Shown piece by piece: positions 15,529 through 46,495 of a stretch of DNA of 50,491 nucleotides. Positions within the stretch are counted from its first letter, which is position 1. Each line of letters opens with the position of its first letter. The notes below the pieces were generated by a model, which searched no databases, was not told the DNA's origin, and was given only the letters and a program-made list of their open reading frames with translations. Made by a program: the position numbers and the translations under genes. The DNA comes from an uncultured Clostridia bacterium (lineage in GTDB: Bacteria; Bacillota; Clostridia; TANB77; CAG-508), in NCBI GenBank assembly GCA_944391965.1, contig CALXVH010000010.1, positions 1 through 50,491 on the forward strand, given 5' to 3'.

Positions 15529-16347
15529 TTATCTTAATTGTATTGCTCTCATTTGCATAAATTCATCAAAATTAATACCAAAGTAATATTTAAAATTAGA
15601 TTCGAAACTGTCAAGAACAACAATATCTTTTCTGGATTTTTTGTCAAATTCAAAATGCATATATTGAGGCAAAAAGAATTTAGCAGAATTTATACTTTCT
15701 ATTTTTTCTAAAAATAAGTCCCTATTATTTTTATATACAGAGGAATGACCTGCTGTACCAGTTTTTTCAGTTTCCCTCATTCTAAATGTTTTTATCTGTG
15801 TTTCACGATAAAATTTAATATCTTCATTTGGAACATATACAACACGAGTTGTATGTAATGAGGAATAACCATTTTCTTTAGGCTCTACTATATAATCCTT
15901 CCTTTTTCTAGAAAGTTCAGTTATATTTGGGTCATGTGTAACTAAAAAATTTTCCATTTCGTATGCTGTTTGAATTAATAAATCTTCATCTGTTTTGCCA
16001 TCTACAGCTAGGATAATTATTTTGTCTCCAAATATATCTAAAGCTTCACCTTTTTTATCTAGTTTTTCCATATAGTTATGCTTAGATTTTACCCTAGACA
16101 TTATATAAAAATCTACGTTTTTAAAAGCAGCTTGTAAACTTGCGTTTTCTGCTTCTAAGTTTTGTATATAATATTGAAGATAATCATTTACATATGTATC
16201 ATATAACCTTACTAGATTATTTCTATTTTCTAAAGCTGTCCTGTGTTCTGGACTTAAAATAAATTGAGCAAGTCCAACTCTTTGCGCGGGAACAGCAAGA
16301 ATCTCACTACTTTTATCAGATTCTAATGAGTTTGTCTTTTGAGACAA
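15529..16347 (-). CDS. RelA/SpoT-domain nucleotidyltransferase-like protein
   Basis: 272 aa. Elements of the (p)ppGpp synthetase fold are visible: RVKSKHNYMEKL, DIFGDKIIIL (usually D-x-x-G-x-R; the Arg is Lys here), YIVEPKENGYSSLHTT and the EtQIKTFRM helix, followed by a His (AGHSSVYK). Other alarmone-synthetase parts (HD hydrolase, TGS, ACT) are absent, so it is a stand-alone synthetase-type domain with N- and C-terminal extensions. Because one usual arginine is replaced, activity is uncertain. The start is TTG at 16345-16347, because GAGGTGAT lies just upstream; a GTG three codons earlier overlaps that site. GCGCGC-rich bases precede it at about 16376-16383. Confidence 0.75.
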   Translation of the reverse strand: MSQKTNSLESDKSSEILAVPAQRVGLAQFILSPEHRTALENRNNLVRLYDTYVNDYLQYYIQNLEAENASLQAAFKNVDFYIMSRVKSKHNYMEKLDKKGEALDIFGDKIIILAVDGKTDEDLLIQTAYEMENFLVTHDPNITELSRKRKDYIVEPKENGYSSLHTTRVVYVPNEDIKFYRETQIKTFRMRETEKTGTAGHSSVYKNNRDLFLEKIESINSAKFFLPQYMHFEFDKKSRKDIVVLDSFESNFKYYFGINFDEFMQMRAIQLR

Positions 16348-16419
16348 TGATATCACCTCTATAATAAAGTATATTTGCGCGCGAAGAATATTATACCAAA
16401 TTTTACTAAAAAGAGCAAT

Positions 16420-27012: not shown

Positions 27013-27429
27013 ATGGATGTACGGAAATTTGTAGGAACATCTCTTGAAGATGTAGCAAAGGAGTTTTCCAAGATGGTCAAAGAAGAATATATCAATCACT
27101 TGGAATTCTTAAGAGATAATTCTATTACAGACAGAAGTGAACTCGATTATTGGGAAAAGCGACTTGAAAATGAGCCAAAAATTGTATACGAACGGGTATA
27201 CAGCAAGATACTTATGGTTATGAAAAATCTAAGCCAGTATGAGGAACTATTAAAGAAAAGATTTCCTTGGAGTAGGCCAATAATTAGGATTACAAGGGTA
27301 TCTAGTTTCTTTGAGGGGATTTCCCCTGGACCGCAAAACCCAATTCCGCGAAATGTGGAATGGTTAATAGACACAAAAAAGATGTCTATCAAAAAAAAGG
27401 TGTACTCAAAGTACACCAATTGTAACTAG
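27013..27429 (+). CDS. Orphan protein, function unknown
   Basis: 138 aa, mostly charged and probably helical in the first ~85 residues (LEDVAKEFSKMVKEEYINHLEF, LMVMKNLSQYEELLKKR), then PWSRPIIRITRVSSFFEGISPGPQNPIPRN and a Lys-rich tail. No domain recognised, no membrane segment. CGGAGG precedes ATG. Its base composition is visibly richer in G+C than flanking genes. The final codons contain a hairpin (27399-27417) whose T-run lies on the opposite strand, so the natural C-terminus may be slightly altered. Own promoter and terminator. Confidence 0.6.
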   Translation: MDVRKFVGTSLEDVAKEFSKMVKEEYINHLEFLRDNSITDRSELDYWEKRLENEPKIVYERVYSKILMVMKNLSQYEELLKKRFPWSRPIIRITRVSSFFEGISPGPQNPIPRNVEWLIDTKKMSIKKKVYSKYTNCN

Positions 27430-33295: not shown

Positions 33296-33319
33296 ATGAG
33301 TGTAAAGGGAGGTAAAATC

Positions 33320-33763
33320 TTGTCTAAGATAGAAAAAAATGTAGAAGAATTAATAAATCCTATAGTAACAAATTTAGGATATAAACTTTATGATGTCATT
33401 TACGAAAAAGAAGCAAAAGACTATTATTTAAGAATTTTTATAGATAACGAAAATGGCATAAGTTTAGAAGATTGCGAAAAAGTGAATAATGCTATTACAG
33501 AGATTCTAGATGAGAAAGACTATATTAAGGATCAATACTTTTTAGAAGTATCATCACCTGGAATAGAAAGAGTATTAAGAAAAGATTGGCAATTAGAAGA
33601 AAACATAGGGCAAGAAGTAGAATTAAAATTATTTAAACCATTTAATGGCGAAAAATTAATAACAGGAATTTTAAACGGATTTAATGAAGAAACAATAAAT
33701 ATAGATGAACAAGAAATACCTAGAAAAGATATTTCATTAATAAAAATAAAATATAATTGGTAA
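33320..33763 (+). CDS. rimP: Ribosome maturation factor RimP
   Basis: 147 aa. Needed for late 30S subunit maturation. Recognisable features are NLGYKLYDVIYEKE, LRIFIDNENGISLEDCEKVN, the YFLEVSSPGIERVLRK block typical of the family, and a C-terminal SH3-like part (VELKLFKPFNGEKLITGIL). The start is TTG at 33320 because AGGGAGGT lies 6 nt upstream; an ATG 24 nt earlier overlaps that site. First gene of the conserved nusA-infB operon; nusA follows 14 nt downstream. Confidence 0.93.
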   Translation: MSKIEKNVEELINPIVTNLGYKLYDVIYEKEAKDYYLRIFIDNENGISLEDCEKVNNAITEILDEKDYIKDQYFLEVSSPGIERVLRKDWQLEENIGQEVELKLFKPFNGEKLITGILNGFNEETINIDEQEIPRKDISLIKIKYNW

Positions 33764-42993: not shown

Positions 42994-43025
42994 ATGAGGC
43001 ATAACTTTAATCTGTTATGCCTCAT
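42994..43025. terminator. Bidirectional terminator between convergent genes
   Basis: Perfect 12-bp stem ATGAGGCATAAC (42994-43005) / GTTATGCCTCAT (43014-43025). The stop codon of the radical SAM gene lies inside the right arm. Confidence 0.8.
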
Positions 43026-43935
43026 AAAATTTTCCTTGCCATAAATCTTGTTCTACTAAACGTTTTTCAAATCCATTTAAAACCCATTTTTTATGCAAAT
43101 TCCATTCTGGTGCAACGAGTAAGTCCTTTGGAGCATCACCAGAAATTCTATGTATAATTAAATCTGGTCTTACATGTGTTATAACATATGTAAGACCATC
43201 TAGATAATAGTCTAATGTGATTGGTTCATATTCTTTGTTATAGTACATATTTGCAAGTACAGTATTTTTTACAATATATGTTGAATGTATTTTTAGTCCT
43301 TGAATATCATGGCTATTTATAAATATAACTGTATCTTTTATATCTTCAAAACTTTCTTTAGGAAGCCCAATCATCATATGTGCGATAATCTCTATATTAT
43401 ATTTTCTTAAAATATTAACAGCTGTTGTAAATTGCAAGCTAGAATAACAACGGTTAATAATTTGACCAATATTGTTATTTGAAGTTTGTAGTCCGAGTTC
43501 AACAGATACGTCATATTTATTAGAGTATGATGCTATTAATTTTGCAATATCTTCTGTAATACAATCAGGTCTTGTCGCAATAGAAATCCCAACAATTTTA
43601 TTGCTAACATTTAAAGCGGAATCATATTTTTCTTTTAGATTTTCTAGTGTATCATATGTGTTAGTAAAATTTTGAAAATATGCGATAAATTTATTAGCTC
43701 GTTTTCCACGATAGCTATTTAAGAAATTAGTTACTTGATTTGCTATATGTTGATTAGCAAATTTGATTAATTCACCAGATCCTTTTTCACTACAAAAAAT
43801 ACAGCCAGAAGTACTTAAAGCTCCATCACGATTCGGACATGTAAAACCTGCGTCAATGCATATTTTTAATGTTCTCTCACCGAATTTATTTTTATAATAT
43901 TCATTTAAATGATTATATCTTTCTTGATTTTCCAT
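43015..43935 (-). CDS. Radical SAM protein, YhcC/YtqA (TIGR01212) family
   Basis: 306 aa from the preferred ATG at 43933-43935. Cluster-binding cysteines are in CIDAGFTCPNRDGA and GCIFCSEKG, a pattern of the TIGR01212 group, with YFQNFTNTYD, GISIATRPDC, VELGLQTSNN and HMMIGLPKE further on. The family has no proven reaction. No Shine-Dalgarno sequence is visible. A TTGTCT-17-TATAAT promoter ends only 9 nt before the ATG, so the mRNA may be leaderless. Longer frames upstream (to 43995) would run through the promoter. Confidence 0.88.
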   Translation of the reverse strand: MENQERYNHLNEYYKNKFGERTLKICIDAGFTCPNRDGALSTSGCIFCSEKGSGELIKFANQHIANQVTNFLNSYRGKRANKFIAYFQNFTNTYDTLENLKEKYDSALNVSNKIVGISIATRPDCITEDIAKLIASYSNKYDVSVELGLQTSNNNIGQIINRCYSSLQFTTAVNILRKYNIEIIAHMMIGLPKESFEDIKDTVIFINSHDIQGLKIHSTYIVKNTVLANMYYNKEYEPITLDYYLDGLTYVITHVRPDLIIHRISGDAPKDLLVAPEWNLHKKWVLNGFEKRLVEQDLWQGKFYEA

Positions 43936-43944
43936 AATGTACAT

Positions 43945-43973
43945 ATTATAACAAATATGACAGAATAAGACAA
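43945..43973 (-). promoter_or_regulatory. Promoter of the radical SAM gene, probably giving a leaderless mRNA
   Basis: Minus strand: TTGTCT (43968-43973), 17-bp spacer, TATAAT (43945-43950). The expected transcription start (about 43938) is within 2-3 nt of the start codon. Confidence 0.65.
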
Positions 43974-43988
43974 ATAGTGACAGATTGA

Positions 43989-44018
43989 TTGACATAAAGT
44001 AAAGAAAAAGTGTATAAT
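43989..44018 (+). promoter_or_regulatory. Promoter of the 44064 orphan gene
   Basis: Consensus TTGACA (43989-43994), 18-bp spacer, consensus TATAAT (44013-44018). Back-to-back with the radical SAM promoter. Confidence 0.75.
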
Positions 44019-44063
44019 TATATTGAGACTGGAGTATTATAACTTTAAGGAGGGTATTAGCCT

Positions 44064-44288
44064 ATGAAACAGATTTTCATAAGAGGCAAAAGAACATCAT
44101 TGGAGCGGGCCAGACGAGTGGTAAAGCAGGTATATGCTTCAAATAACTTCCAAGCAAGATATAAAAGAGGTGAAGTACAGCTGTACTTCCCGAACTATAT
44201 TTCTGCTAAAAAGGTAGAAATAATTGCTGACAAACTGGAACTTAAGATAATTAGTCTGGGTACCAAAGCAATTTTAGATGTCGATTAA
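44064..44288 (+). CDS. Small basic orphan protein, function unknown
   Basis: 74 aa, strongly basic at the N-terminus (FIRGKRTSLERARRVVKQVY) with an alternating beta-like second half (GEVQLYFPNY, LELKIISLGTKAILDV). No known domain recognised; the net positive charge would suit nucleic-acid binding, but this is a guess. AAGGAGGG precedes ATG. Strong own promoter and terminator; more GC-rich than the flanking core genes. Confidence 0.65.
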   Translation: MKQIFIRGKRTSLERARRVVKQVYASNNFQARYKRGEVQLYFPNYISAKKVEIIADKLELKIISLGTKAILDVD

Positions 44289-44297
44289 CCCTTTGAA

Positions 44298-44343
44298 ACC
44301 CTTGGGATATGCAAGCAATAAGAGCATATCCTGAGGGATTTTT
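44298..44343 (+). terminator. Intrinsic terminator of the 44064 gene
   Basis: Long stem: ACCCTTGGGATATGC (44298-44312) against GCATATCCTGAGGGAT (44324-44339), with G-U pairs, then TTTTT. Confidence 0.85.
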
Positions 44344-44391
44344 CCTTATATAAGAAAATGAAATTGTGATTTTATGGTGGAGTAAGAAAAG

Positions 44392-44420
44392 TTGACTAAG
44401 GTAACATAATTTGATAAAAT
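44392..44420 (+). promoter_or_regulatory. Promoter of the interrupted kinase gene
   Basis: TTGACT (44392-44397), 17-bp spacer with TGA before the -10, TAAAAT (44415-44420). Confidence 0.6.
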
Positions 44421-44479
44421 ATAAGATGAAGTTTTTTGAATTTAGCAAATACTTGTTTAAAAGATGGGAGGACAACAAG

Positions 44480-45121
44480 ATGAATATATCAGATAAAACG
44501 TTTAAAACATTGGAAGAAGATTTACTAAAGGCTACAGCTAAATTACTAAATAAACGTAGCCGGTATTTTTATAAGAATGAAATAAAGATACCAAAAAAAT
44601 CTTTGGTTATGATGTGTGGCACACCTGGAGCTGGAAAGACCACTATTGCGCGAAAAATTTGTAGTCAATTGAAAGATTCAATCCATGTCGATATTGACTA
44701 TTTGTTTGATTGTGCAACAAAAACTCTTTATCCAAATGCTCAGTCTTTATCTGTAGAAGATATAGATTTAATTGCGAAAGAAGCTTATGATAAAGCATAG
44801 CGAAATGCAGAAGAAATTTTAGCAAATGGAAATACTGTAATATGGGATAATTTGGGAATATTCCCAACAGAAAGAGCAGAGGTGCTAACTAGACTGAAAG
44901 ATAAATATTATTCTGCAATACTGGTAATAATGAATTGTGATAAAATGCAGGCTATTATCCGGTCGATTGCTCGAGGTGACACGCAGAATAGAACCAACCT
45001 AATCTTAAGTACATATATGTATTTGCAGCCTCAACTTTATCAGCCAAGTAAATACTTTATTGGATTTGATGAAGTCTACATCATTGACGGGACACAAGAA
45101 GTAACAGTAAAGGAGCCATGA
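44480..45121 (+). pseudogene. P-loop kinase-like gene interrupted by one in-frame TAG
   Basis: The frame runs from ATG 44480 (GGGAGG upstream) to TGA at 45119-45121, 213 codons, with a single TAG at 44798-44800. Before it: Walker A GTPGAGKTT and HVDIDYLFD, as in AAA_33 / zeta-toxin-like kinases. After it the same frame continues with RNAEEILANGNTVIWDN and FPTERAEVLTRLKDKY...VIMNCDKMQAIIRSIARGD, which fits the second half of the same fold. A CAG to TAG change (Gln) would explain it. Alternatives are two separate polypeptides, nonsense suppression or a sequencing error. Own promoter and terminator. Confidence 0.75.
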
Positions 45122-45137
45122 GAGTGGCTCCTTTACT
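45106..45137 (+). terminator. Hairpin at the end of the interrupted kinase gene
   Basis: Perfect 13-bp stem AGTAAAGGAGCCA (45106-45118) / TGGCTCCTTTACT (45125-45137) with the TGA stop in the loop. The following T-tract is weak. Confidence 0.7.
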
Positions 45138-45263
45138 ATGTCAGATAATTTTTACGAAATGTAAGATAATTCTTGAAAGATTATGTAAAGTATGATGAAA
45201 TATACAAGTCGCAAAACAATGTTGAGTTTTAACTACCATAAGGTAGGGAAAGGAGTTGCCATA

Positions 45264-45671
45264 GTGATAAAAGTGGCGCTTACAAACGGATATAAAGTAT
45301 ATGGAAGACTTATAGAAGAGAATTCATCTTCCATAATACTTGTAGCACAGCGGGAGCTGATTCCAGAAATGAGAATTTCTCATATCCGTTGTTCAAAAGA
45401 CATCGGTGAGAAAATCGTCATTGACAGGACTCAGGTGGCAGAAACAGAGGAAGTTTCATATGATGAGATGGAATTTGTTGGTGAATCCGAGAAAGAGTGG
45501 TCTTTCTGGTTAGGTTTTAGCGAGCATTTACCTGCTGACCAGCTTGAACCAGGAATTACTCAATATGATGAGGGACCGGTCAATCCAATTAGCGAGGAAT
45601 TAAATCTGGAGCCAAAAGTTGAATTGGAGGAAGATCCAGAAGAAGAACTCGACGATGGGCTTGACATGTAA
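45264..45671 (+). CDS. Orphan protein, paralogue of the 45983 gene product
   Basis: 135 aa from GTG 45264, preferred because AAAGGAG ends 8 nt upstream and because the sequence then aligns with the paralogue; a longer frame to 45192 has no site. Pattern: beta-rich N-terminal half (VALTNGYKVYGRL, IILVAQRELIP), then HIRCSKDI, IDRTQ, EFVGESEKEWSFWLGF and ITQYDEG, ending in a strongly acidic tail (EEDPEEELDDGLDM). The V-x-x-x-x-G-x-x-x-x-G-R opening could be a small beta-barrel, but no family is recognised. Strong terminator downstream. Confidence 0.65.
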   Translation: MIKVALTNGYKVYGRLIEENSSSIILVAQRELIPEMRISHIRCSKDIGEKIVIDRTQVAETEEVSYDEMEFVGESEKEWSFWLGFSEHLPADQLEPGITQYDEGPVNPISEELNLEPKVELEEDPEEELDDGLDM

Positions 45672-45717
45672 AATAATGACCATAGTGCACGCACATGCAC
45701 TGTGGTCATTATTTTTT
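45671..45717 (+). terminator. Intrinsic terminator of the 45264 gene
   Basis: AAATAATGACCATAGTGCA (45671-45689) pairs with TGCACTGTGGTCATTATTT (45696-45714, one G-U) around a CGCACA loop, then a T-run. Confidence 0.9.
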
Positions 45718-45758
45718 ACTAAATATATGCTAGTTTAAAATATTGCTAATATCGTTTT

Positions 45759-45827
45759 TTAAAATTTCAAGATGGGTGTAAAATCTATTAAAACTCCTCC
45801 TAAATCAAATATAATATTTTTTATCGT
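45759..45827 (-). pseudogene. Remnant of a HAD-superfamily hydrolase 5' end
   Basis: On the minus strand 22 sense codons read IKNIIFDLGGVLIDFTPILKF after an ACG where ATG would be expected; AAGGAG lies 7 nt upstream of that ACG. IIFDLGGVLIDF is the textbook HAD motif I including both aspartates. The frame then meets TAA and no further HAD sequence is seen. I infer a truncated, start-mutated gene fragment. Confidence 0.6.
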
Positions 45828-45890
45828 AATTATTCTCCTTATCTAAGTCTAATTAACGTAGATTACAATATGTTATAGTTAATTAGCCAA

Positions 45891-45919
45891 TATACAAAAT
45901 GTAAATAATATGCTATAAT
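45891..45919 (+). promoter_or_regulatory. Extended -10 promoter of the 45983 gene
   Basis: ATGCTATAAT with TATAAT at 45914-45919; a weak -35, TATACA, lies at 45891-45896 with a 17-bp spacer. The element matches the extended -10 of the 9087 and 27013 orphan genes. Confidence 0.6.
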
Positions 45920-45982
45920 AACCGTGGTAACAAAAAGGCAGAGAGAACTTACAAAAAATATGTAAGGAAAAGGAGGTTCTTT

Positions 45983-46390
45983 ATGGATGCGAAAAAGGAT
46001 TCTATTATAAATGTATTTACCAAATCAGGTAAAAGTATTTGTGGTAGATATGTAGGAGAAAGGAATGGAGCTATACGGATAGCACTTCAGCAAAGGATTA
46101 TACCAGACGACAAATTGCTGGGAAAAGGCGTACATGACAGAACGCTTATAAGATGCTCACAGGACTTCAGAAATGCTATTAGCATTCCTAGAGCAGAACT
46201 CAAAGTATGGAGTTATGCAAGATACAATGAGATTTGCTTTATAGGAGAGCCTGAAGAGAAAGACTATTTCTGGCCATTTTTTCACTTTTACGATGCTCGG
46301 TATTTGAACATCGAAAACACTGTGATAACACAGTATAACTCAGCAGGGTACTTTAAGGGCAGAGAAAAAGAACCGCAGTTAGAAGAGTAA
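45983..46390 (+). CDS. Orphan protein, paralogue of the 45264 gene product
   Basis: 135 aa. Shares with the 45264 product, in the same order: a G-R-x-x-x-E/G turn (FTKSGKSICGRYVGER), QQRIIPDD, LIRCSQDF, SIPRAEL, a Tyr-x-Glu, CFIGEPEEKDYFW and VITQYN. It differs by an insert before IRCS and by lacking the long acidic tail. AAGGAGG stands directly before ATG, with an extended -10 promoter about 64 nt further up. Function unknown; cytoplasmic by absence of membrane or signal segments. Confidence 0.65.
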   Translation: MDAKKDSIINVFTKSGKSICGRYVGERNGAIRIALQQRIIPDDKLLGKGVHDRTLIRCSQDFRNAISIPRAELKVWSYARYNEICFIGEPEEKDYFWPFFHFYDARYLNIENTVITQYNSAGYFKGREKEPQLEE

Positions 46391-46409
46391 TGCTAACTGT
46401 AAAGCAAAC

Positions 46410-46486
46410 AGATTTTAATCATAGAGATGGAGTAATTAACAAGAAAGAAACGTTGTTGGTTTCTCCATCTCGATGAAAAAATCTGA
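46410..46486 (+). terminator. Long stem-loop after the 45983 gene
   Basis: Outer arms CAGATTTT / AAAAATCTG and a perfect inner GAGATGGAG (46424-46432) / CTCCATCTC (46463-46471), with a small AACAA / TTGTT helix inside. No T-run follows, so it may be a terminator for the orphan gene or a structured leader of the fab operon. Confidence 0.5.
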
Positions 46487-46495
46487 CCAGTCAGA
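46482..46495. promoter_or_regulatory. Dyad upstream of fabH, possible operator
   Basis: TCTGAC-CA-GTCAGA, 6-bp perfect arms, about 65 nt before the fabH start. Fatty-acid operons of Firmicutes are often controlled by FapR or FabT; this sequence does not match either consensus as I remember it, so only position and symmetry support it. Confidence 0.35.

Follow-up and report, generated by a model that had tools for sequence, protein, structure and literature searches.

The window analyzed here, a stretch of 50,491 nucleotides corresponding to contig 10 of an uncultured Clostridia genome (G000; ~1.5 Mb, 27.6% GC), carries two neighboring genes, here called A and B, which encode diverged tandem paralogs. 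As far as sequence searches reach, they are the only two detectable copies in G000 of a protein family that has so far been found only in this genus. Modeling gives moderate support to the view that both proteins are small barrels, most like those of the Sm fold, and codon usage, slot contents and the mosaic of synonymous divergence indicate that A and B were imported and exchanged as single genes within a variable slot upstream of fabH. What the pair does is a more tentative matter, which is taken up after the evidence for its ancestry and predicted fold.

The gene pair and its variable slot

A and B are flanked by a divergent radical-SAM gene (43015-43995) on one side and by fabH (46561) on the other, and the two open reading frames of 135 residues that a preliminary description of this DNA had reported are present (Table 1). 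Both have good ribosome sites; the start codon of A, GTG in the window, is ATG at the same codon in sister genomes. The earlier view of the two as divergent tandem paralogs is upheld by BLASTP (29% identity over 93 aa, E=1e-12) and by a Smith-Waterman score of 111, against a maximum of 51 among 2,000 shuffles, a score that is the same after removal of the acidic tail of A. The shared motifs listed in that description are real and are kept in an alignment of nine A and B sequences from five genomes, in which the invariant columns are GR, Q, IR-x-S-x-D, Y, G, W..F and TQY, and the acidic tail that it ascribed to the first protein is both present and conserved. Since dN/dS lies between 0.07 and 0.31 for most A/B pairs with measurable dS, both genes are translated and under purifying selection.

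Table 1. Features of the gene pair and its surroundings, in window coordinates unless residues are given
Feature	Position	Strand	Remarks
Foreign-composition slot, whole	43996..46480	.	From the divergent radical-SAM gene to the fabH operator (candidate); GC3 0.34-0.36 for most genes
74-aa genus-restricted orphan	44064..44288	+	Same slot, foreign codon usage
P-loop gene (AAA_33/Zeta-toxin-like kinase fold)	44453..45121	+	Same slot; one in-frame stop in the window (translation)
Terminator-like hairpin after P-loop gene	45104..45139	.	
Promoter-like stretch of A	45172..45200 (approximate)	+	TTGAAA-N17-TGAAAT; conserved block
Protein A gene	45264..45671	+	135 aa; GTG start, preceded by AAAGGAG
Terminator hairpin of A	45670..45715	+	20-nt arms, T-run on 3' side; -29.5 kcal/mol, z=-7.75; kept in the two closest genomes
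Promoter of B	45891..45919	+	TATACA-17-TATAAT, TG before -10 (extended -10); -10 region kept in all five genomes
Protein B gene	45983..46390	+	135 aa; ATG start
Hairpin downstream of B	46414..46481	+	Strong, -33.4 kcal/mol
Protein A layout	Barrel, residues 1-65 (predicted, five-strand)		Middle block Y-DE-x-F-VGE...W-GF...TQY is conserved; highly acidic tail at the C terminus; pI 4.1 for the full protein
Protein B layout	Barrel, residues 8-78 (predicted, five-strand)		Basic, barrel pI 9-10; conserved block ARY-E...YFW-FFH-YDA-YL...TQYNSAG

Judged by the signals around it, each gene is its own transcription unit, as had been proposed from a clear promoter of one gene and a strong terminator of the other; we recover a promoter of B and a hairpin 3' of A. 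The same description overlooked a conserved promoter-like stretch of A, which reads TTGAAA-N17-TATAAT in G011 and is degenerate in the window. The hairpin downstream of B can be called only a possible terminator because no T-run follows it; it is absent in G011 and G007, where a canonical terminator-like sequence is found instead. An Rfam match to mir-3118 at the terminator of A falls far below the gathering threshold and is explained by the hairpin alone.

Relatives were found in only 4 of the 13 other genomes of the genus: G003, G005 and G011 each have orthologs of both proteins, and G007 has an ortholog of B but none of A. No genome was seen to carry A without B. The radical-SAM gene and fabH flank the family in all five genomes. 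An hmmsearch of all reading frames in 1.38 Mb of G000 gave no third copy, and profile searches of 390 genomes of the taxonomic family and 391 of the class gave no convincing relatives outside the genus at these sensitivities; matches there with E-values of 4e-4 to 0.009 were rejected, as they extend over short segments only and two of them fall within far longer open frames or run across stop codons. The impression that the proteins resemble no known family has held: neither A nor B matched a curated family, strongly or otherwise, in Pfam, NCBIfam, PHROG or PADLOC, and all nine members were without a match in Pfam and NCBIfam. Phage, plasmid and IMG/VR viral-contig collections contained no homolog of A or B, plasmid matches at E-values up to 10 being chance. 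A match to the bL21 profile (E=0.04) was rejected, as it takes in no more than a portion of the barrel, together with a large share of the acidic tail. PADLOC likewise had no model for the 74-aa gene of the slot and gave only generic P-loop matches for the P-loop neighbor, and neither of these neighbors matched phage records or IMG/VR.

The composition of the slot is foreign to the genome. GC3 is 0.34-0.36 (0.24-0.26 in the front half of the P-loop gene), compared with 0.135 at the median and 0.205 at the 95th percentile among genes 150 aa or longer, and since intergenic GC is 0.245 the slot values do not reflect local mutational equilibrium. Between G000 and G005, dS is 2.35 for B and 0.22 for A, 0.16 for the radical-SAM gene and 0.33 for fabH, while between G011 and G007 it is 0.02 for B and 0.37 for fabH; from this mosaic, single genes have most likely been replaced independently. 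The contents of the slot also vary among sister species. The P-loop gene is intact in G003 and G011 (loci L017 and L019), the 74-aa gene is found near the radical-SAM gene in G002 and G013, the slot of G010, G008 and G012 holds other orphans (GC3 0.33-0.57), and that of G004 holds a different gene. The edges of the slot showed no convincing short direct repeats such as an insertion would leave.

Two further observations concern this region. Within this slot or beside it, other genomes of the genus have different orphans (L054:2364-2960, L056:2398-2841 and L057:3174-3605; GC3 0.33-0.57), which at 19-28% identity may form one very divergent family. Just upstream of fabH lies a perfect dyad, TCTGACCAGTCAGA (46482-46495), which has a chance expectation of 0.01 occurrences in the window and is conserved in the other genomes, with a variant in G007. 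It looks like a candidate operator of a fatty-acid-synthesis regulator, in a placement that we take to be FabT/FapR-like.

A predicted small barrel

AlphaFold, run from the shallow alignment of nine sequences, predicts five strands in A (residues 2-6, 11-19, 23-30, 41-54 and 58-63) and five in B (8-13, 18-27, 30-38, 57-69 and 73-78); in both models strand 5 is preceded by a short helical turn. The pLDDT is mostly 80-90 in the two barrels and poor beyond them, and for B one of five models is confident (mean pLDDT 70; the others ~53). When these models were compared with the PDB by Foldseek, the top matches were nearly all Sm, Lsm or Hfq proteins, Sm/Lsm ranking first for B and Hfq for A, with probabilities of ~1.00 and TM-scores by target mostly of 0.43-0.66, but with E-values of 0.02-0.2, all above 0.01 (0.02-0.1 for B against Sm/Lsm structures; 0.05 or higher for A against Hfq structures, with a shallow alignment behind the model). 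Foldseek matches in BFVD include viral or phage proteins named Hfq-like or Sm-like. The predicted folds of A and B agree with each other, and with this ranking they support, short of proof, the earlier guess of an Sm- or SH3-like barrel. The outcomes that the preliminary description had named as refuting it, unrelated folds or a strong match to a known family, did not occur.

Profile-profile scores are negligible: hhalign of A and B against Hfq, Sm and RimP gave at most ~4% probability (below 1% for Hfq), and the best PDB sequence-profile match to an LSM domain has an E-value of 0.44-1. A search of G000 with the LSM profile (PF01423) gave no match, nor did the Hfq family profile (PF17209) match any of the nine members in a Pfam scan or any sequence of G000, with positive controls detected. 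By the sequence criteria of those families, A and B are not members of Hfq or Lsm. Read by eye, the alignment does not retain the nucleotide-pocket residues D-x-x-M-N of Sm1 and R-G/C of Sm2; most of the invariant residues (GR, Q, IR-x-S-x-D and TQY) are not known to contact RNA, and the barrel makes up only half of each protein. We rejected an equivalence between the IRC of A and B and that in Sm2 of SmF, as the following hydrophobic residue is out of register.

The proteins resemble several known systems in part. With Hfq they share the predicted small five-strand barrel, Hfq being the best Foldseek class for A, and the acidic C-terminal tail of A recalls that of E. coli Hfq (PMC5606850); they differ from it in having no sequence match, in the lack of an N-terminal helix in both models, in the greater length of the strand 3-4 loop of B, in a conserved extra C-terminal block, and in being two unequal paralogs. 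The likeness to Sm/Lsm proteins (PF01423) lies in the order of the predicted barrel, in a G-x-x-V-x-G-like strand 2 in A and a long strand 3-4 loop in B, and in unequal duplicated paralogs, comparable to those of hetero-oligomeric Lsm rings; unlike these proteins, A and B fall below every cut-off, lack the Sm1/Sm2 signature residues, and are bacterial and genus-restricted. The C-terminal SH3-like domain of RimP (window 33296-33763), another small barrel of G000, has a similar strand pattern, but profile-profile comparison shows no relation to A or B.

Charge and possible function

The two proteins differ in charge in the same way in every genome: A is acidic (pI 4.1-4.2), its tail having a net charge of -14 to -18 and its barrel being neutral to acidic, and the barrel of B is basic (net +4 to +10, pI 9-10). 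E. coli Hfq has an acidic tip at its C terminus that binds to the basic rim of the protein's own Sm ring, in competition with RNA (PMC5606850). By analogy, we tentatively suggest that B might be a nucleic-acid-binding small barrel and A its acidic partner or regulator. Each protein is predicted to combine an N-terminal Sm/Hfq-type small β-barrel with a family-specific C-terminal extension, and each gene arrived and has been exchanged as a single-gene unit, with its own promoter and terminator, in the variable slot upstream of fabH. B, with its strongly basic barrel, would oligomerize in the manner of Sm proteins and bind RNA or DNA, and A, with its acidic conserved tail, would either pair with B or compete against nucleic acid for binding to it. 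Hfq-type control would then have its basic and acidic halves divided between paralogs, an idea drawn from composition and from the Hfq precedent (PMC5606850). If both the fold and the acid/base pairing hold, the pair would represent a bacterial Sm-like family that sequence libraries fail to detect, and a natural instance of the “acidic mimic” control of a single Hfq chain being split between two paralogs.

The Sm fold is closely related to that of SH3 and has the same topology (PMC2650416), and A and B could instead be small barrels of the SH3-like kind, whose target is protein and not nucleic acid. They might, for instance, act as an inhibitor or adaptor that a phage or another mobile element has left behind, and the conserved aromatic block at the C terminus would then do the work. 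The absence of the nucleic-acid-pocket motifs would fit such a role, as would an aromatic/acidic C-terminal block conserved at least as well as the barrel and the occurrence of phage-like families (LysM/transglycosylase and a Tad4-like match) in the same compositional class. We consider it somewhat unlikely, since almost no SH3 domains appear among the top 50 Foldseek matches, Sm/Lsm/Hfq coming first for both models, the basic barrel of B is kept in all species, and the phage, plasmid and viral-contig searches yielded no relative. That A and B are non-essential selfish or decaying imports, with no settled host role, is less probable again: their foreign codon usage and variable slot are in keeping with it, as is the state of the neighboring P-loop gene, which carries a stop in the window and a truncation in G005 and was not seen in the slot of G007, but the purifying selection on the pair argues against this reading, and their promoter region, ribosome site and reading frame are kept across related genomes.

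Whole-genome searches, in which controls were detected, found Hfq (PF17209) in none of the 14 genomes of the genus and in neither of two other sampled genera of the taxonomic family; three genomes from a different family of the same order did contain it. Coupled with the predicted Hfq-like fold and a tail resembling that of Hfq, this absence could be taken to mean that the A/B pair has replaced a lost Hfq as the general sRNA chaperone of the lineage. We regard this as highly improbable. The family is present in only 5 of the 14 genomes and so is not a general Hfq substitute, many relatives without A and B are also without Hfq, and the genes sit in a variable slot, from which A is missing in G007.

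A genome-wide class of foreign-composition genes

By their composition, A and B belong to a class of about 49 genes spread across 1.38 Mb of G000 (49 ORFs, loci L060-L139 and the window), defined by GC3 and composition alone as ORFs of at least 70 aa with a GC3 of 0.285 or more. The median length is 146 aa and most members stand singly between core genes. A hairpin below -15 kcal/mol lies within 80 nt of the 3' end in 82% of the class, compared with 31% for the core genes (47% for those that have a gap after them), and an extended -10 lies upstream in 49%, compared with 15% of core genes; because the class was picked by GC3 and composition and the comparison is unmatched for length or expression, this enrichment in promoters and terminators is suggestive. 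Among 36 members scanned, there were few family matches (RelA/SpoT, LysM, cupin, DUF3419/methyltransferase and Tad4-like).

The nucleic-acid-binding reading of B could be extended to this setting, to give a new horizontally exchanged bacterial Sm-fold family in a lineage without Hfq, with an acidic/basic pair in which B binds nucleic acid and A is a dedicated paralogous inhibitor or hetero-ring partner, the whole being part of a genome-wide set of imported, self-terminated single-gene cassettes. Taken together, so much is doubtful. How a gut lineage with a small genome keeps acquiring and exchanging isolated, foreign-codon single genes at fixed places is a tractable question that this setting offers.

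A 138-aa orphan in the window (27013-27429; GC3 0.38) belongs to the same compositional class; its relatives, 30-81% identical to it, were found only within the genus, in five further genomes. An isolated gene with a RelA/SpoT domain (L105:6661-7647) is also of foreign composition, and a second RelA/SpoT-like ORF, recognized by eye only, lies at 15529-16356 of the window.
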